Source of the DNA: Bryobacterales bacterium
GTDB lineage: Bacteria; Acidobacteriota; Terriglobia; Bryobacterales; UBA6623
DNA length: 64,000 bases
Assembly (NCBI GenBank): GCA_028819255.1
Contig: JAPPMB010000015.1
Location: 62,001-126,000, forward strand
Direction of reading: 5' to 3'
Position numbers and translations under genes: made by a program. Numbering within the stretch: the stretch's first letter is position 1; each line of letters begins with the position of its first letter. The notes beneath the pieces were generated by a model, which was given only the letters and a program-made list of their open reading frames with translations, did no database searches and was not told the origin of the DNA. Shown here one piece after another: positions 19,639 to 60,800 of this stretch.

Positions 19639-20151
19639 TCAGTAGACCGGAGTGCCGTATGGGACCGGCGTCTCCACCCGCCTGATCTCGCTCACCCGCG
19701 CAATCTTCCAGTCGCCGCTGATCCTGCTGAGGTAGACCTCCTGGACCTCGTTTCGGTCAGCGTAGACGTACTCCACGCGGACCTCGGCTTCCTCGCCCGC
19801 CTTCTTCGGAGCGTTCATCGCGATGCCCTTGATGTCCCGGTTCCTCTCCCTGAGAAAGTCCGAGAAGCGCTCGGAGCCCATCTCCTCAAGGCTCTGGCGC
19901 AACATCCGCTCCATCTGGCCCGAATAGCAGTCGAGATAGTCGTTCACGACGCCGTCGCGCGCCGCATCGAGCATGGCGTATATGACGTCCCTCGGCTCCA
20001 CCTTCTTCGGCTTCGTGAAGCTGAGCAGCCCCGCATCGCCCCCCGAGCTTCGTGACAATGCGCTGAATGCCCCCTGATTCCAGGCGATGAACGCGAGAAC
20101 GCCCGCAATCAAGGCGACCGTGAGGACTTGCGCTTTCGCGTCGCGGCTCAT
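19639..20151 (-). CDS. Small membrane-anchored protein of unknown function, operon partner of SPFH genes
   Basis: N-terminal TM (AQVLTVALIAGVLAFIAW); C-terminal NTF2/DUF4878-like pattern (VEYVYADRNEVQEVYLSRISGDWKIARV); start overlaps the stop of the preceding hflK-like gene. Confidence 0.75.
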   Translation of the reverse strand: MSRDAKAQVLTVALIAGVLAFIAWNQGAFSALSRSSGGDAGLLSFTKPKKVEPRDVIYAMLDAARDGVVNDYLDCYSGQMERMLRQSLEEMGSERFSDFLRERNRDIKGIAMNAPKKAGEEAEVRVEYVYADRNEVQEVYLSRISGDWKIARVSEIRRVETPVPYGTPVY

Positions 20152-21140
20152 GGTTGCGACGACCGACTCGATGCTCCGCTACGCACAAGCGTGAGGTCGA
20201 GGTTTCCGTTCTCGTCAACGATCGTCTTGCGCAGCCGCGGCAGAACCTCTTCCATCGTCTCGAGGAACAGGCGGCTGCGGGTGACTTCCGGGTTGCGGCG
20301 GTACTCGGCAGCCACGCGCTCGAAACGCGCAGCGTCACCTTGCGCCTGCTGGACTTTTCTCGCCCGATACCCCTGCGAGGCGGACAGCATCTGCTGGGCC
20401 TCACCTCTCGCCCTCGGCAGGATGTCGTTTCCGTAACCCTCAGCCTCATTCACGATCCTGGCAGCGTCCGCGCGCGCGGACGCAACATCCCGAAAGGCAT
20501 CGGCGGCCTCCGCAGGCGGACTCACGGAGCGAATGTTCACTGTCGAGAGGATGACGCCAAGTTCCAGCTGGTCCACTAGTTCCTGGGCCGCCCGACGCAC
20601 CTCCTCCTGAATCGCGATCTTCTCGGTCGTCAAGACATCATCGACGGCACGGGAGGAGATCTGGCGCTCCAGGGACGCCTCGACCGCGTTCGCGACGGCC
20701 TGATCGACGTTTCGCGAGCGGAAGAGGTACGTGCCCGGCCTTGCGATGCTGTACTGCACCACCGCACGAACGTTGAGTATGTTCTGGTCGCCGGTCAAGA
20801 ATTGCGAGAGCACGGGGTCGGCCGGGATGGCGTTCGCCTCATCTGCAACCTCACCCCCGATGAAGGCCCGCTTGAGTTCCCGCACCTTGAGCTTGTCGAC
20901 TTGGCCGATGGGCCAGGGGAAGTGCCAGCCCACGCCAGGCGTCACCTGGTCGTTGGCAAGGGCTCCGAACGTGGTCAGGACGGCTTGCTCTTCGGTCGGG
21001 ACGACGTAGACGCCGGCGAGCAGCCATACGATGACGCCGGCAATGGCGGCGCTACGAGCCGACAGCGAACGGAGCTGAGACCAGACCAGTCCAACGACCG
21101 GCGGCTGCCTGCTCGACGAGGATGAGGCGTGCTGGTGCAT
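20148..21140 (-). CDS. hflK: HflK-like SPFH/Band 7 protein (second HflK in the operon)
   Basis: GVYVVPTEEQAVLTTFGALANDQVTPGVGWHFPWPIGQVDKLKVREL; FRDVASARADAARIVNEAEGYGNDILPRARGEA; LFLETMEEVLPRLRKTIVD. Confidence 0.9.
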   Translation of the reverse strand: MHQHASSSSSRQPPVVGLVWSQLRSLSARSAAIAGVIVWLLAGVYVVPTEEQAVLTTFGALANDQVTPGVGWHFPWPIGQVDKLKVRELKRAFIGGEVADEANAIPADPVLSQFLTGDQNILNVRAVVQYSIARPGTYLFRSRNVDQAVANAVEASLERQISSRAVDDVLTTEKIAIQEEVRRAAQELVDQLELGVILSTVNIRSVSPPAEAADAFRDVASARADAARIVNEAEGYGNDILPRARGEAQQMLSASQGYRARKVQQAQGDAARFERVAAEYRRNPEVTRSRLFLETMEEVLPRLRKTIVDENGNLDLTLVRSGASSRSSQP

Positions 21141-21147
21141 CTGTCGG

Positions 21148-22161
21148 CTATTGGCCCCGAGTCATCAGCCGCAGCAGTTCGGAATCCGCACTGAGGATCA
21201 CGGTCGTCTCCTCGTCCAGGGCCTTCCGGTAAGCCTCGAGGGTGCGCGTGAGCTTGTAGAAGGGCTGATTGCGGGAGTATGCGGCCCCATAGATGCGGGC
21301 CGCTTCGGCGTCCCCCTCGCCCTTCGTTGTCTCCGCCTCCTTGTAGGCGGCAGCCAGGATTTCCTCTCTCTTTCGATCCGCTTCCGCCCGGATCCTAAGA
21401 GCCTGCTCCTCGCCTTCCGCCCGGTACTGCCGCGCGATGCGCTCGCGCTCGGCCCGCATGCGGGCGTAGACGCTCTGCTTGTTCTGTTCGGGCAGGTTGA
21501 GCCTCTTGAGCCGGACATCCACCACGCGGATGCCGTACTCCTGGAGCGCTTCGGTGCCGCTCTCTTTCGCCAGCCTGTCGAGCACCTTTCCGGTCTTGAC
21601 GACGCCAGGTGACACGGAGACGATCTCCTCGAGGTCGAGGCCCGCGATGGTCGCAGCCAGGCCCGACCACACCAGGTCGTGCAGTCGCATCTCGGCCGCC
21701 CGCTCGTTTCCGACGGCCTGAACGAAGGTTTCCGGATCCGCGATCTGCCACATCGCGTAACTGTCGATGCTCAGGTTCTTCTTGTCCTTGGTCAGAAACT
21801 CGGAGCGCGGCGGATTGTAGACGCGCAGCCGGCGGTCGTAGAAGCGGACCTGGTGGACTAGGGGCACCTTGATCTTGAGTCCGGAATCGGTGATCGTGCG
21901 AACCGGCTTTCCGAACTGCGTCACGAGCGCGAATTCGGTCTCGCGGACGGTGAACAGAGCAGACCACGCGAGCACTAGGGCGACGAGAGCCATGAGCCGG
22001 CTGCGGCGGCGGTGCAGGAAGCCGTGCCAGTCGAGCGGTTCGTGCGCCTTGTGCCGGTGCTCGTGATCGTGCGAATGGTCGGCGTGGTGATCGTGCGAAT
22101 GGCTTTGGTCATGGGAATGACCATGGTCGTGATGATGGTGCGTGTGACTGTGGTCGTGCAT
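21148..22161 (-). CDS. hflC: HflC-like SPFH/Band 7 protein with extreme His-rich N-terminus
   Basis: MHDHSHTHHHHDHGHSHDQSHSHDHHADHSHDHEHRHKAHE precedes the TM; HflC-like body (LFTVRETEFALVTQFGKPVRTITDSGLKIKVPLVHQVRFYDRRL; YARMRAERERIARQYRAEGEEQALRIRAEADR). Confidence 0.92.
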   Translation of the reverse strand: MHDHSHTHHHHDHGHSHDQSHSHDHHADHSHDHEHRHKAHEPLDWHGFLHRRRSRLMALVALVLAWSALFTVRETEFALVTQFGKPVRTITDSGLKIKVPLVHQVRFYDRRLRVYNPPRSEFLTKDKKNLSIDSYAMWQIADPETFVQAVGNERAAEMRLHDLVWSGLAATIAGLDLEEIVSVSPGVVKTGKVLDRLAKESGTEALQEYGIRVVDVRLKRLNLPEQNKQSVYARMRAERERIARQYRAEGEEQALRIRAEADRKREEILAAAYKEAETTKGEGDAEAARIYGAAYSRNQPFYKLTRTLEAYRKALDEETTVILSADSELLRLMTRGQ

Positions 22162-22164
22162 GGC

Positions 22165-25100
22165 TTATTCGCCCAGTTCCGGCATTTCGAAAGGCGGGGG
22201 AGGCTGCTGCATCTGAACGCCCGGGGGAGCAGCGAGAACGCCCTCGTCCATTGTCCAAAGGGTCCGGCGCCCGCCGGCAGAGTCAATGACGAGCTTGCGC
22301 CGGCCGGGCAGGATTTCCTCCATCGTTTCCAGGTACAGGCGCGTGGAGGTCGATGCGGGCGCCGCCCGATAGGCGGATTCCATCTGTGTGAAGCGCGCCG
22401 CATCGCCGCCGGCCCGATCCGAGCGGCTCGCCCGGTAGCCCTTGGCCTCCTGGACCAGGGCCTCGCTCTGGCCTCGGGCCAGCGCGACCTGCTCGTTCGC
22501 GTAGCCTTCCGCCTCGTTGATCATGCGGTTCTTCTCCTCGAGCGCGCCTGCAACCTCGCGGAACGCATCCACAACCTCGACCGAGGGGTGCATGTCCTGG
22601 ATGTGGATCTTCAGCACGTGCACGCCCGCGCGATACCCGGCCAAGAGACCGTTCAGGCCTTCGGCTGCCCTTTGCTCGGCCGCCCGACGGCCGGTGGTGA
22701 GAAGCGAGTCCAGCGGAATGGTGTTGACGACGGAGCGCAGGGCCGCCTCCGACGCCGTGCGGAGCACGGCCTCGGGGTCCACCTGCTGAAAGAGATAGTG
22801 GTCCGGACGGTCGATGTTGTAGTGCACGACCGCCGTCATCTCGATCATGTTCTGGTCCCCGGTCAGCATCAGCGTCTCGTCGTCCCGCAACTGGATCCGC
22901 CCGTCCCGGTGCTGGATGTTCCACTCGTAGGCGGGCGGTTCGCTGAAGGAGGTCGAGTCCGAAGTGCGGAATCCGATCTCGATCACCCGGATCTCCCTGG
23001 CCCTGACTCTGGTGAGGCGTTCCACGGGCCAGGGAAGCTTGAGATGAAGGCCGGGTTCCCGATGAGGCATCACCTTGCGCCCGAACCGCTCGATGACGCC
23101 CACCTCTTCCGTGCCGATCGTGAACAACGACGTGGTCATCCAGCCCGCGAGCACCGCAACGGCCGCCGGCTTGGCAAGGCGCCGCCGGTGCTCCACCAGC
23201 CAGGCAAACCCGCCGGCCGGATCGATCCGGCTGAGAATCCCGACGCCTGTGGCCCACAGCTCCTTGATGCCGAGGGAATCCCAAACGCGCCGCTGCACGC
23301 TGGTGTGGCCCGCGGGGCGCTCGACCCGCAGCAGGCGGACCGAGTTGAGCATGACGAAAATCGACGAGATCTGGTGAACGCCCGCGGCGAGAGCGGGCCC
23401 CATCCAGCCCTTCCCGGCGATGTAGACGGCGACGACATTCACGACCCCCGCGAAGAGGATAATGTTCTGCCAGACGGTCGTCACCGCGCGTCGGGACACG
23501 CCGAACAGCTTCGGAAGCTTGGTGAGCCGGGCATTGAGATCGACGACGTCCGCCGCCTCTGCGGCAATGTCCGCCCCGGAACCGGAGATCGCCACCCCAA
23601 CGTCCGCAGCCGCCAGGGCCGGAGCGTCGTTCACGCCGTCGCCGATCATGGCCACCTTGCGGCCCTGGACCTGCAGCTGCTTGATGCGGTCGAGCTTCTG
23701 CTCGGGAAGCAGCTCGGCTTCGACGTGGGAAATCCCCACGACTCTCGCCATGGCGTCCGCCGCCTTCCGGCGGTCCCCTGTGAGAAGGATGACGTTCGCG
23801 ATCCCCAGGTCCTCGATCTCATGGACCACGTCGTGAGCACCGGACTTCGGCGTGTCCCGAAGGAGGATCGCACCCGCGAAGCGGCTCCCCTCCGCTATGA
23901 GGACCGGCGTCGCACCAGCCCTGTCGGCCGCCTCCAGCGAGTCCCGGAAGTCCGTGATGCCGTTCTCTGCGAGAAATGCCTCGTTTCCCGCGCGAACGAC
24001 CTGGCCCCCGTAGACGCATTGGGCGCCCCGCCCCGGAACGATCCGGGCGTCCTGGGGTGTTCCCACAGCGATCCCCTTGTCGGCCGCACTCCGGACGATC
24101 ACCTTGGCTAGGGGATGGTCGGACCCGGCTTCGGCCGTGGCCCCCAAAGCCAGCACCTGCGCTTCGCTGCGGCCCGGGCCGGCCAGGACCTCGACGATCT
24201 CGAACTCGCCGGAGGTCAGCGTTCCAGTCTTGTCGAAGACAACGGTGTCGATTTCGGACGCCTTCTGGACCACCTGGCCGCCACGCGCCAGCAACCCCCG
24301 GCGCGCCAGGCCGCCGATCGCCGCCACCATCGCCGCAGGCGTGGCGAGGATCAACGCGCAGGGGCAGCCGACAATGAGGACTGCCACGGCGCGCCGGACA
24401 CGTTCAGCCGTGTCGGCGCTGCCCGCCAGGAAGTAGACGGCTCCTGCTGCGAGCAGGATCGCGGGAAGGAAGTACCGCGCATACCGGTCGGCGACGCGGA
24501 CCACGGGAGCGGTGCGGTGGTCCCGCGCCTCCTCGACGAGGTGGATCAACCGCGCCAGCGTCGACTCCTCGCCGGCGTGTGTGACCCGGATGTGGAGCAG
24601 ACCGTGGCCGTTGACGGTGCCCGAGAACACCTCCTCGCCCGGAGCCTTGTCCCTTGGAACGGACTCGCCGGTGATGGGGCTTTCGTCGACCGAGGACTCG
24701 CCGCTCCTAACCACGCCGTCCGCCGAGATCCTCTCGCCCGCCCGCACGACGATCAGATCGCCAGGCACCAGATCCTCGACGTGGATCTCGACCTCGCTGC
24801 CGTCCCTCAGGACCCGCGCGTGATGAGGCAGCTGGTCGACGAATCGATGGATGGCGCGCTCGGTCCGGCCGGCGGCCCAGGCTTCCAGCCCCTCTCCGAG
24901 GAGCATGATGAACATGGCCTCGGCAGCCGCAAGGTACTCGCCGATCGCCAGCGCAGCGGTGGCGGCGATCACAATGGCGAGGTCAGCCGAGATCTTCCGC
25001 TCCAGAAGCTCGGAAATGGCGCGGTAGAAGGTCTTGTACCCGGCGAGAATCGCCAGGAAGATCGCAGTGTCGACACCGGCGACCGAATCGAATACACCGA

Positions 25101-25206
25101 ACAGATTGAGGAGCAGCAGAACTCCGACAAAGACGGTGAATCCTACGTACTTGACTTGCTCCCGGCGGTCGCGATTGATCGCGTGGTCCTCGGAGACAAC
25201 GTGCAC
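22165..25206 (-). CDS. P1B-type heavy-metal ATPase fused to C-terminal HflK/SPFH domain
   Basis: 1013-aa uninterrupted ORF; ATPase motifs ESPITGESVP, VGCPCALILATPAA, DKTGTLTSGE, TGDRRKAADAMA, GDGVNDAPALAAADVG; then a new TM and HflK domain (LFTIGTEEVGVIERFGRKVMPHREPGLHLKLPWPVERL...RLYLETMEEILPGRRKLVID). Confidence 0.95.
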   Translation of the reverse strand: MHVVSEDHAINRDRREQVKYVGFTVFVGVLLLLNLFGVFDSVAGVDTAIFLAILAGYKTFYRAISELLERKISADLAIVIAATAALAIGEYLAAAEAMFIMLLGEGLEAWAAGRTERAIHRFVDQLPHHARVLRDGSEVEIHVEDLVPGDLIVVRAGERISADGVVRSGESSVDESPITGESVPRDKAPGEEVFSGTVNGHGLLHIRVTHAGEESTLARLIHLVEEARDHRTAPVVRVADRYARYFLPAILLAAGAVYFLAGSADTAERVRRAVAVLIVGCPCALILATPAAMVAAIGGLARRGLLARGGQVVQKASEIDTVVFDKTGTLTSGEFEIVEVLAGPGRSEAQVLALGATAEAGSDHPLAKVIVRSAADKGIAVGTPQDARIVPGRGAQCVYGGQVVRAGNEAFLAENGITDFRDSLEAADRAGATPVLIAEGSRFAGAILLRDTPKSGAHDVVHEIEDLGIANVILLTGDRRKAADAMARVVGISHVEAELLPEQKLDRIKQLQVQGRKVAMIGDGVNDAPALAAADVGVAISGSGADIAAEAADVVDLNARLTKLPKLFGVSRRAVTTVWQNIILFAGVVNVVAVYIAGKGWMGPALAAGVHQISSIFVMLNSVRLLRVERPAGHTSVQRRVWDSLGIKELWATGVGILSRIDPAGGFAWLVEHRRRLAKPAAVAVLAGWMTTSLFTIGTEEVGVIERFGRKVMPHREPGLHLKLPWPVERLTRVRAREIRVIEIGFRTSDSTSFSEPPAYEWNIQHRDGRIQLRDDETLMLTGDQNMIEMTAVVHYNIDRPDHYLFQQVDPEAVLRTASEAALRSVVNTIPLDSLLTTGRRAAEQRAAEGLNGLLAGYRAGVHVLKIHIQDMHPSVEVVDAFREVAGALEEKNRMINEAEGYANEQVALARGQSEALVQEAKGYRASRSDRAGGDAARFTQMESAYRAAPASTSTRLYLETMEEILPGRRKLVIDSAGGRRTLWTMDEGVLAAPPGVQMQQPPPPFEMPELGE

Positions 25207-25293
25207 AGGTAGACAAACATAGCAAAGAGATCCCCTGAAGGGCGCGGGATGCGCAGGTGCCTGCCACGCGGGTTACAATCGCCGTCTGGACCC

Positions 25294-57092: not shown

Positions 57093-58220
57093 TCAACAAG
57101 CGCAATCATCTTGGCAGCACGATAGATCGTCGAGATACATTCCGTGGCGGCGGTACTCCTCCAGCGGCTTCGTGCTCACCCGCAGGCTGCGGGCGATCTG
57201 GTTGGCCACCACGGCAAAGCGTTGGCGGAACTTGTAGATGAAACAGAAGATGACATCGCCTTGGCGCACCTGCGGCCCGACCAGGAAGAGCCCTTTCGTC
57301 ACGGTGGACTCGTCGTTTTCCGTCAGCAGCGGAAAACTGTCATCTCGCCAATCGAACAACGAGCGGACGAGGCTTGCCGAACCGACGAATCCGGAGGCCA
57401 GGATCGGCTTCTCGGCGCAGTCGACGACCTCGCCGTGCTCGAGTGCCAGCTGATAGCCGTCGTCGTTGCGGCGTACGCCGATGACCGTGCAGCCCCCGCG
57501 CAGCGTCACCCGACCCGAGTCAATAGCCGAATTCAGACGTGCGTTCGTAAAGGGCGACAAGAGTTGGCTGGGGTCCGAGCCTCTTCGTTTCCACGGCTCC
57601 TCGCCGTCGAAGACGACGGCTCGTCGACCCGCGGCGGCCAGCGCGATGGCGGCGTCGACGCCGCTCTCGGAGCCGCCGATGATGCATCGCTCGTCGCCGC
57701 TGAGATCGTCCCATGAGGTCACCATGGAGTTGTGCACGCACAGCTCGGCGCCGTGGAAGCCGTTGGTCAACGGGTACTGCATTTCGCCGCCCGCCCAGAC
57801 CACGAACCGCGCGCGGATGTCGCCGCGACTCGTCTCCACCCGAAACCGCCTATACCTACGTTTTGTCGCGACCGAGAGAACGTCGACACCGGTCTCTACC
57901 GGCAAGTCGAAGTGTTCCGCGACCGCTCGCAGATAGCCGGCGTACTCCTCCCCCGTCGGGTGCTCGACGCCGATCGAGTAGGCCGGCGAGGTGTGCAGAC
58001 AGACGGCGTTGAGGTCGAGGGCGCCGAACTGGGTGCTGTTGAACGAAGGCGTGATGAAGCGCATTTGCCGGGGCCAACGCTGGAATGAGGCGCCGACGGC
58101 GAGGCGTTCGAGGATCACAAAGTTCTCGATTCCGAGGTCGCGTAGCGTCACACCAAAGCCGAGGCCGGCGGCGCCGGCGCCGACGACGGCAATGTCGAAT
58201 GAGCGGGCTCCTTTCCTCAT
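57093..58220 (-). CDS. FAD/NAD(P)-binding oxidoreductase with Cys-rich C-terminal tail
   Basis: ATG at 58220: MRKGARSFDIAVVGAGAAGLGFGVTLRDLGIENFVILER; GGSESGVDAAIALAAAGRR; ends LDDLSCCQDDCAC. Confidence 0.87.
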   Translation of the reverse strand: MRKGARSFDIAVVGAGAAGLGFGVTLRDLGIENFVILERLAVGASFQRWPRQMRFITPSFNSTQFGALDLNAVCLHTSPAYSIGVEHPTGEEYAGYLRAVAEHFDLPVETGVDVLSVATKRRYRRFRVETSRGDIRARFVVWAGGEMQYPLTNGFHGAELCVHNSMVTSWDDLSGDERCIIGGSESGVDAAIALAAAGRRAVVFDGEEPWKRRGSDPSQLLSPFTNARLNSAIDSGRVTLRGGCTVIGVRRNDDGYQLALEHGEVVDCAEKPILASGFVGSASLVRSLFDWRDDSFPLLTENDESTVTKGLFLVGPQVRQGDVIFCFIYKFRQRFAVVANQIARSLRVSTKPLEEYRRHGMYLDDLSCCQDDCAC

Positions 58221-58364
58221 CGGCTCACCCGAACCGTTTCGCGTCCGTCGAGGCGTAGCTCGCCATCGCGCGGTCGAGCCCGACACTTGCCTCGAGCGTC
58301 TCGACCACCCCCGGCAGTCGGAACGCGGGTTTCGCCTCCGCGGCGTCGATCGACCGACACGACA

Positions 58365-60800
58365 CTAGAAGAAGCGCACGATGTAGCTGAAGCGAACACC
58401 GCGCCCGATCTCCGGAGCGAGATCCTTGATGAATGACGAGTGGTTGCGATAGAGCTGGTCGCCGATGTTGAACACGTTGGCCGAGAACTGATGAATCGCG
58501 CCGCGCGTCGGGATCGTGTACGACGCCCGCAGGTCGAGGACCGCGTATCCGGCCGTCGGCGTTTCCAGGTCGAATGTCTGGCTCTGCCGGTCCGCCAGCA
58601 CGAGCTCGGGCCGAATGCTGAAGCCTTTGCGCCGGTACTCGATCCCGACGCGGCCCCGCAGGGGGGGGATTCGCGGCAGCGGGGTGCGCGTGACCGTCGC
58701 TCGCGCGTCGACGAGATCCATCCCGAGATTGAGCCGCAAGTCCTGGATCAGGCCGACGCCGAGCCGGGCTTCTGCTCCGGTGAAGCGGCTGTCGCGCTGC
58801 ACGAAGTGGACCACGGGCAGCCCGCCCTCCTCCTCGCCCGTTGCGAACGGGAAGACGAAGTTGCGGAAATCGTAGTAGAAGAGGTTGAACTCGCCGTCGA
58901 CTCTTCCAGCCTGCTGCCTCAGGGACAGGTCGAGGCCGTTGCCGCGCTCGGCATCGAGGCCGGGATCGCCCACCTCGAAGATCAACGTGCCGACGTGCGG
59001 CCCGAGGTTGTAGAGCTCCTCGAGCGCCGGGGCGCGGTAGGAGTGGGAATAGTTGGCGACGAAAGCGCCGCCGCGCCACAGGTCCGCCTGCAAGCCCACA
59101 GCGGCCGAGGCGCCCGTGAAGCGGCGAGGAATCGCGTCCGGGACTGCTTCCTCGTGATGGCCCTCCTCTTCCTCTTCGTGATGGTGTTCTTCGCCTTCTT
59201 CCTCGTGATGGTGCTCTTCGCCTTCTTCTTCGTGAGGGGCATGGCCGTGGGCGCGCTCGGCGAACGCCGGATTGTAACGGGAAGTCTCCAGGCGGCCGCC
59301 GAACTGAAGCTTGACCCGCTCGAAATCGAACTCTTCGAGCGCGAACAGGGCGAACGACTGCTGATCGATGGGCGGCGCGAGCGCTTCTTCGCCCGCCGCC
59401 GAGTAGTCGCGCTCCATGCCCCAAAACCCGAAGCGGCCCGTCAACGGTCCACGTTGGTTCTGTTCAAAGACGCCTCGATAGACGACCTGATCGTTGTCGA
59501 AGCGCGTGCCGATGCGGCGTTGGTCGCCCTCGAATTCGATCTCCTCGTGTTGATACGTCGTGTAGGCCAGCTTCATCACGAAGCTCTCGAGCGCGGGTCC
59601 TAGACCTCGCAGCCCCCAGTTGACCTGATAGGCCAGTTGGCGCATGGCGAGATCGATGCGAAGCTCCTCCTCGTGCTCCTCCTCTTCGTGCTCCTCCTCT
59701 TCGTGCTCGTGCTCCGCGTGCTCGTCCTCTGCTTCCTCCCCCTCGTGATGATGCTCGTCTTCTTCGTGATGATCATGGCTGTGGAACTCGCCAGCGAAGG
59801 GATTCCCGTACTTGGCGTCGTTGGCGCGGACGCCGACACTAACGAAGCCTCGCTCGCCGAACCAGCCAAAGCCGCCATAGCCGTTCTCAGAGCGAGTCCG
59901 GGAATTCTCGATTACTCCGGTGGGCGTGGAGTAGTCTCCGGTGCGAAGGCCATTGCCCCCGCCCCAGACCCGCCAGGGGCCGCGGGCGTAATCAAAGCCA
60001 GCCGCCCCTCCTGCCAAGGCGTTGCCCGTGCCAGCGGAGCCCTGGATGTAGCCCTGCAGGCCGTCCGGATGCGAGACGAAGCCAGCGTGGCCGCTAACGG
60101 CGTTCACGACCCCTCCCATGGCGTTGCTGCCGTAGAGCAAGGTCGCGGGGCCCTTCACCACTTCGATCCTGTCAAACGACAGCGGATTGAACGTCTCGGC
60201 GTGGTCGCCGGAGTTGGACGAGATGGAACCCGTCCGCAGCCCGTCGGCCATGATCAGAACCCGGTCGCCGTCAAAGCCGCGAATGATCGGGCGTGACGAG
60301 CCCGGCCCGAACCCCCGTTGGGCGATGCCCGTGCCCGGCTGATTGCCGAGCACTTCGCCCAGGCCGGCGGCGATGTTCTCCGCGCGAGCCAGCTCGAGCG
60401 GGGTCAGCGAGTGCGTGGATTGGAAGGCCTCGAAGGCGGACTCGGTCCGCCCTGCCGCACTTACAGTGATTTGCGATTTCACCGTCGGAAACGACAGCAG
60501 CAATTGCACCTGAGCCGTCCCTTCGCTAGCGACCTCGATCGTTTCAGAGGCACCCTGCAAGGCGCTTTCGATGTGAGCGTGAAGATGGTAGCGGCCCGGC
60601 CGCAACCCCTTGAACTGAAACTCCCCTTGCCCATCGGCGGTCGTCGAATCCCCCGTTTCGAGGAGGATGACGGTCGCCCCGGCGACGGGCTCACCCGTCT
60701 GTTCGAGCAACACTTGCCCGTCGATGGCGGCGGTTTCCTGGCCGTGGACTGCGGATACCGCGAGCAGCGCTGCCGCGACAGCGCAAAGCATTCGTTTCAT
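58365..60800 (-). CDS. TonB-dependent outer-membrane receptor, ZnuD-like, with His/Glu-rich loops
   Basis: Signal MKRMLCAVAAALLAVSAVHG; carboxypeptidase-like N-domain; plug PGTGIAQRGFGPGSSRPIIRGFDGDRVLIMADGLRTGS; HSHDHHEEDEHHHEGEE and HGHAPHEEEGEEHHHEEEGEEHHH; C-terminal IGRGVRFSYIVRFF. Confidence 0.94.
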   Translation of the reverse strand: MKRMLCAVAAALLAVSAVHGQETAAIDGQVLLEQTGEPVAGATVILLETGDSTTADGQGEFQFKGLRPGRYHLHAHIESALQGASETIEVASEGTAQVQLLLSFPTVKSQITVSAAGRTESAFEAFQSTHSLTPLELARAENIAAGLGEVLGNQPGTGIAQRGFGPGSSRPIIRGFDGDRVLIMADGLRTGSISSNSGDHAETFNPLSFDRIEVVKGPATLLYGSNAMGGVVNAVSGHAGFVSHPDGLQGYIQGSAGTGNALAGGAAGFDYARGPWRVWGGGNGLRTGDYSTPTGVIENSRTRSENGYGGFGWFGERGFVSVGVRANDAKYGNPFAGEFHSHDHHEEDEHHHEGEEAEDEHAEHEHEEEEHEEEEHEEELRIDLAMRQLAYQVNWGLRGLGPALESFVMKLAYTTYQHEEIEFEGDQRRIGTRFDNDQVVYRGVFEQNQRGPLTGRFGFWGMERDYSAAGEEALAPPIDQQSFALFALEEFDFERVKLQFGGRLETSRYNPAFAERAHGHAPHEEEGEEHHHEEEGEEHHHEEEEEGHHEEAVPDAIPRRFTGASAAVGLQADLWRGGAFVANYSHSYRAPALEELYNLGPHVGTLIFEVGDPGLDAERGNGLDLSLRQQAGRVDGEFNLFYYDFRNFVFPFATGEEEGGLPVVHFVQRDSRFTGAEARLGVGLIQDLRLNLGMDLVDARATVTRTPLPRIPPLRGRVGIEYRRKGFSIRPELVLADRQSQTFDLETPTAGYAVLDLRASYTIPTRGAIHQFSANVFNIGDQLYRNHSSFIKDLAPEIGRGVRFSYIVRFF
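59150..59250 (-). repeat. Imperfect in-gene repeat encoding EEEGEEHHH units in the TonB receptor loop
   Basis: Repeated GTGATGGTG(T/C)TCTTCGCCTTCTTCxTC blocks on the + strand. Confidence 0.7.

Follow-up and report, generated by a model that had tools for sequence, protein, structure and literature searches.

A histidine-rich N-terminal tail on the HflC-type partner of a P1B-ATPase–HflK fusion is a candidate cytoplasmic metal antenna

In Escherichia coli, FtsH is surrounded by 24-subunit cages, or by open nautilus shells, built from the SPFH proteins HflK and HflC (PMC12048511). Genes of the same HflC/HflK families accompany a P1B ATPase in the hmtA cluster of Pseudomonas aeruginosa (PA2434–PA2439), which is up-regulated on zinc depletion (PMC4542158), a response also seen in the proteome (PMC11761036), and HmtA itself has been reported as a Zn/Cu importer (PMC4542158, PMC10393844). 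A 2026 study of P. aeruginosa SPFH proteins, among them the three-SPFH operon PaFlo5–7, reported few phenotypes and nowhere uses the word ATPase (PMC13086221). We consider PaFlo5–7 to be probably PA2437–PA2439. In the literature searched, nothing was found on HflK–P-type ATPase fusions or on His-rich SPFH proteins. Here, we describe a four-gene operon, contained in a 64,000-nt stretch of a Bryobacterales genome (the window), in which a P1B ATPase is fused to HflK and the adjacent HflC-type protein opens with a His-rich tail.

The operon lies on the minus strand, in the order P1B-ATPase–HflK fusion, HflC, a second HflK-type protein (HflK2) and a membrane-anchored NTF2-like protein. The fusion (22165..25206; 1013 aa, GTG start) exceeds curated cut-offs for both of its parts, scoring 558.6 bits with TIGR01525 (cut-off 346) and 208.7 bits with TIGR01933 hflK (cut-off 159.4). 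The ATPase part (residues 1–627; 23326..25206), delimited by Pfam matches and invariant columns, has a short N terminus, E1-E2 ATPase and HAD domains, a CPx motif (CPC, residues 281–283, 24358–24366, invariant in the family) and DKTGT (residues 325–329), and is a predicted P1B-type metal transporter. Its last transmembrane helix carries an HQISS motif (residues 611–615; 23362..23376), of which H611 and Q612 are invariant in the family. Pfam matches only E1-E2_ATPase, Hydrolase and Band_7 in the fusion, with no HMA domain. A linker (residues 628–673; 23188..23325) that is not His-rich here, but is in some relatives, leads into the HflK part (22168..23187), which comprises a TM (about residues 674–691), an SPFH domain and a long helix, as assigned by Pfam, TIGR01933 and the predicted structure. 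This model, whose modest pLDDT (73.5) confines its use to domain order and which is silent on the tail, shows eight membrane helices in the ATPase part, followed by the linker as a helix, a single TM, the SPFH domain and the long helix. Because the ATPase has eight membrane helices, family topology would put the linker in the cytoplasm and the HflK SPFH domain in the periplasm.

Downstream of HflC, HflK2 (20148..21140; 330 aa) scores 229.5 bits with TIGR01933, and the fourth gene (19639..20151) encodes a protein of 170 aa in which an N-terminal TM precedes a putative NTF2-like (DUF4878-like) domain. The latter is the fourth gene in most operons, and its assignment is at the level of fold: the model (pLDDT 88.5) matches NTF2-like proteins in Foldseek (best E 1.4e-4), and 21 of 46 homologues have weak DUF4878 matches. 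Upstream of the fusion, inspection by eye of the family f1 upstream regions (f1 being the window's own family) revealed a conserved extended -10-like element, TGCTATGTT (TGCTATCTT in relatives; 25207..25224, minus strand), with TATGTT at -15 to -10 from the GTG; such an element roughly 10 nt before the start suggests a leaderless mRNA. No Zur-type palindrome was noticed by eye upstream of the operon, and the genome has one Fur-family gene. The same genome encodes a single FtsH, away from the operon, and no other close HflC-like protein. No canonical HflC was seen in it, the sole HflC being the His-tailed one.

The HflC-type protein (21148..22161, minus strand; 337 aa) matches TIGR01932 with 224.3 bits (cut-off 134.4) as well as Band_7, and opens with MHDHSHTHHHHDHGHSHDQSHSHDHHADHSHDHEHRHKAH. 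Its tail (residues 1–40; 22042..22161) contains 20 His, 6 Asp and 5 Ser, a dense run of histidine with acidic and polar neighbours, and precedes a TM at residues 54–72 (21946–22002). The stretch before this TM is net positive, and charge and family topology together indicate that HflC is probably N-in, with its tail in the cytoplasm. A first-pass annotation of this DNA had pointed out the 20 histidines directly before the TM of an HflC, predicted them to be cytoplasmic and remarked that the adjacent ATPase lacks an N-terminal HMA domain; these descriptions hold, the cytoplasmic placement as a probable one. Among the open segments of the window the tail is the richest 40-aa His stretch, and its composition is not a matter of chance, as the binomial probability of at least 20 His in 40 residues is about 1e-23 at the His frequency of the operon (2.0%). 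The runner-up (12 His in 40 aa, at about 59.8 kb) lies inside a TonB-dependent receptor of 811 aa (58365–60800, minus strand), which has two His/Glu-rich loops (HSHDHHEEDEHHHEGEE..., EEGEEHHHEEEGEEHHHEEEEEGHH), is reminiscent of zinc-type receptors and is followed by an FAD-dependent oxidoreductase (57093–58286, minus strand).

The fusion's TAA stop lies in frame one codon upstream of the HflC ATG at 22161 (TAA GCC ATG), so the HflC open reading frame cannot begin earlier. In family f1 relatives, a G-rich, Shine–Dalgarno-like stretch sits just 5′ of this ATG and the MHD/MHE start is kept. On these sequence grounds we regard the start at 22161 as secure. The length and residue order of the tail vary. 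Across six close congeners, pN/pS is 0.30 in the tail versus 0.039 in the HflC core, values that are pairwise sums over few independent events; the tail thus appears to be under purifying constraint, looser than that on the core.

To map the tail's occurrence, we tallied distinct HflC cores, calling a tail where the 60 residues preceding the TM contain 8 His or more. Thirty of 92 fusion-linked HflCs are tailed, 2 are weak and 60 have no tail; among seven plasmid-borne, P1B-linked HflCs, five are tailed, one is weak and one has none. The tailed plasmid operons come from Burkholderia, Paraburkholderia and four Rhizobium records (one of them weak), and the HflC of a Klebsiella plasmid operon is without a tail. 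Canonical HflC had been said to begin near its TM with no such extension, and this is borne out: none of 30 canonical Acidobacteriota HflCs is tailed, nor is that of E. coli, which dismisses the tail as a general HflC feature. It is likewise absent from all four HflC paralogues linked to SO_0444 transporters. P1B-linked and control HflCs differ with a Fisher p of 7e-6, a value that ignores kinship among the sequences; the control stretches contain no P1B sequence, the canonical ones spanning only about 1.5 kb on each side. The first-pass annotation had also raised conservation in homologous operons, which proves complete within family f1 (all 15 distinct members) and fails for the 60 tailless fusion-linked HflCs. 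Outside f1, tails occur in all 8 distinct f49 rows and in a few f3-like lineages, and one family accounts for roughly half of the fusion-linked sequences that have a tail. On the HflC tree, tail state changes at least six times. As read from these sequences, the tail is both clustered by descent and recurrent.

The His-rich stretch is not confined to HflC. We surveyed 85 complete operons at four sites (HflC tail, HflK2 tail, ATPase–HflK linker and ATPase N terminus), all predicted to be cytoplasmic, with a threshold of 6 or more His per 25 residues. The stretch occupies the HflC tail only in 26 operons, the HflK2 tail only in four (L054, L108, L117 and L118) and the linker only in seven (for example RLHHLGHRYHHFRHDVHHLQHDVLHWLHH in L088); four f49 operons combine the HflC tail with the ATPase N terminus, and one combines the HflC tail with the linker. 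Two of the HflC tail, HflK2 tail and linker thus coincide in only 1 of the 42 operons that have any stretch. This change of site suggests that the position of a His-rich stretch at the cytoplasmic face counts, whichever protein carries it. The other 43 operons have no stretch at any of the four scored sites, so the element is optional and dispensable; together with the 60 tailless fusion-linked HflCs, this rejects the idea that the tail is obligatory for the fusion ATPase.

Within Acidobacteriota, the four-gene operon occurs in family f1, in f3, which belongs to the same taxonomic order as f1, and in f22, f30 and f49, and orthologues of the fusion are found in other families. In the ATPase tree, the fusion ATPases fall into a single clade (100/100) that excludes CopA, ZntA and sCoaT; the ATPases from plasmid operons with the hmtA layout make up another (100/100). 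Membership of the fusion ATPase in the HmtA clade is not supported by this tree, in which the plasmid-operon ATPases stand for the hmtA layout and HmtA itself is not included. In a quick tree of MAG-derived data, in which long branches lead to the plasmid HflCs, the fusion-linked HflCs make up a group (SH-aLRT 93) separate from the 30 canonical sequences; on that tree they are a divergent HflC-like paralogue group, though above the TIGR01932 cut-off. No common metal gene flanks the operon in the loci sampled. At two f49 loci (L080 5370–6155 and L085 4611–5399), the operon is directly preceded by the gene of a membrane permease that has a His-rich loop and the HX4DH-like motif HTLIGIDH; the L085 copy has no Pfam match at 1e-3. 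Bryobacterales-like operons are also present on contigs filed as Cytophagales, Nevskia soli and Acidimicrobiia (L108/L110, L119 and L150), probably misbinned or misnamed MAGs; the L108 and L110 operons look identical.

HflK is also joined to metal carriers of other families. In related Bryobacterales, a Cu/Zn efflux transporter of the SO_0444 type is fused to HflK (L074 4681–7005; NF033936 319 bits, cut-off 300), has a His-rich loop and adjoins HflC and another SPFH gene, and on a plasmid of Aquibium oceanicum a CDF–HflK fusion (L170 5361–6908) adjoins HflC and HflK2. Three further loci (L075–L077) have SO_0444–HflK clusters like that of L074, on which the fusion itself was tested, and such a cluster is seemingly missing from the window's genome. 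Also beside the L170 fusion is a P1B ATPase whose CxxC (HMA-like) domains are separated by His-rich stretches. The His-rich loop of a relative's NicO/RcnA-like membrane protein (L073 2593–3672) matched the HflC tail.

We propose that the SPFH scaffold of a metal ATPase has, in this tail, an optional cytoplasmic metal antenna or buffer, a reading to which we assign a probability of just over one half (about 0.52) and in which we infer the topology, co-assembly, metal binding and buffering. The operon would give rise to a metal-ATPase–SPFH membrane complex, with the P1B ATPase joined through its cytoplasmic C terminus to HflK. The fused HflK, HflC and HflK2 would be expected to co-assemble into an HflK/C-like ring or cage with periplasmic SPFH domains, inside or at which, by analogy, the fused ATPase would sit. 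The HflC N termini would ring the cytoplasmic side near the metal path of the ATPase, presenting many histidines per complex, and the disordered tail would most likely act as a weak, reversible ligand of transition metals of the Zn(II) or Cu type, which it would concentrate and buffer. The same element could equally occupy the HflK2 tail, the linker or the ATPase N terminus. The predicted metal binding of the tail probably serves to hold ions for the pump. The first-pass annotation had suggested a metal donor or sensor supplied in trans; as to the donor, it stands that the tail is genuine, conserved in its family and recurrent on P1B-linked HflC, but an obligatory role falls with the tailless homologues that keep the fusion. 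The evidence is better matched by an accessory role, as antenna, buffer or sensor, than by an obligatory donor.

Transport could be inward: the ATPase would then be an importer, and the tail would catch or store metal at the cytoplasmic exit instead of loading the pump. This is how HmtA, in its zinc-depletion-induced cluster with HflC/HflK-family genes, has been reported to transport, the HflCs of the plasmid hmtA-layout operons bear the tail, and the window also encodes the TonB-dependent receptor with His/Glu-rich loops. We nevertheless consider this acceptor or store role unlikely, as the window's ATPase falls in another P1B clade, with HQxSS rather than HN-x-[GS]T in the last TM, the SO_0444 and CDF partners elsewhere belong to efflux families, and the importer polarity of HmtA needs confirming according to a Pseudomonas review (PMC10393844). 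Rather improbable, in our view, is that the tail is a metal sensor that alters HflK/HflC, for example FtsH access, and thereby pump abundance or activity. HflK/C surrounds and regulates FtsH in E. coli (PMC12048511). The single FtsH of this genome, and its lack of another close HflC-like protein, would suit such a role, but the operon has no direct FtsH link. Metal sensors usually have defined sites, whereas tail length and residue order are variable. That variability, the many tailless homologues and the higher pN/pS in the tail than in the core would also be expected if a low-complexity repeat had expanded, neutrally or under weak selection, without any role in metal handling; yet every f1 member is tailed despite sequence drift, pN/pS is well below 1, and the tail recurs on HflC beside P1B ATPases while no canonical HflC has one, which makes this very unlikely. 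A start-site artefact, with HflC beginning downstream at, for example, MALVAL, as the first-pass annotation had cautioned, has a negligible chance of being correct given the in-frame stop, the Shine–Dalgarno-like stretch, the kept MHD/MHE start and the constraint on the tail.

Alongside the antenna reading of the tail, a larger novelty lies in the theme of HflK fused to metal transporters. Tentatively, HflK/HflC-type SPFH assemblies may have been re-used repeatedly as housings for metal transporters (P1B, SO_0444 and CDF, each joined to HflK); an interchangeable His-rich antenna on the cytoplasmic side, shared by the assembly, would then replace a metal-binding domain on the pump. HflK–transporter fusions and the His tails of their partners suggest a direct, testable function, that of housing and feeding a metal pump, and predict SPFH phenotypes under transition-metal starvation or excess.

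Comparison with described systems highlights what is shared and what is distinct. HflK and HflC of E. coli belong to the same families by curated models, and a ring or cage would be expected here by analogy; in contrast to the E. coli system, where HflC has no His tail, the window has HflK fused to an ATPase, two HflK-type proteins and FtsH encoded elsewhere. The hmtA cluster and the plasmid operons (Burkholderia L173, Paraburkholderia L175, Rhizobium L176 and Klebsiella L177) likewise combine a P1B ATPase with three SPFH proteins, and most of the plasmid operons, laid out HflK-HflC-SPFH-P1B, share the HflC tail. In the hmtA layout, however, the ATPase is a separate last gene of another P1B clade, whereas here it is fused and first; the plasmid-operon HflC is very distant from that of the window, and no 170-aa NTF2-like gene was noted in this layout. 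Because the fusion ATPase lies outside the hmtA-layout clade, the Pseudomonas data carry over only by analogy. With CopA, ZntA and sCoaT (7qbz), the fusion ATPase shares the core fold, a CPC or SPC motif and DKTGT, but it differs in having no N-terminal metal-binding domain, an HQxSS motif, a C-terminal HflK and a clade of its own. The His-rich tails and loops of NicO/RcnA-type proteins, SO_0444 transporters and P1B N termini have the same composition as the HflC tail and lie on or beside a metal carrier; in the window, the stretch is on a scaffold subunit and not on the carrier.
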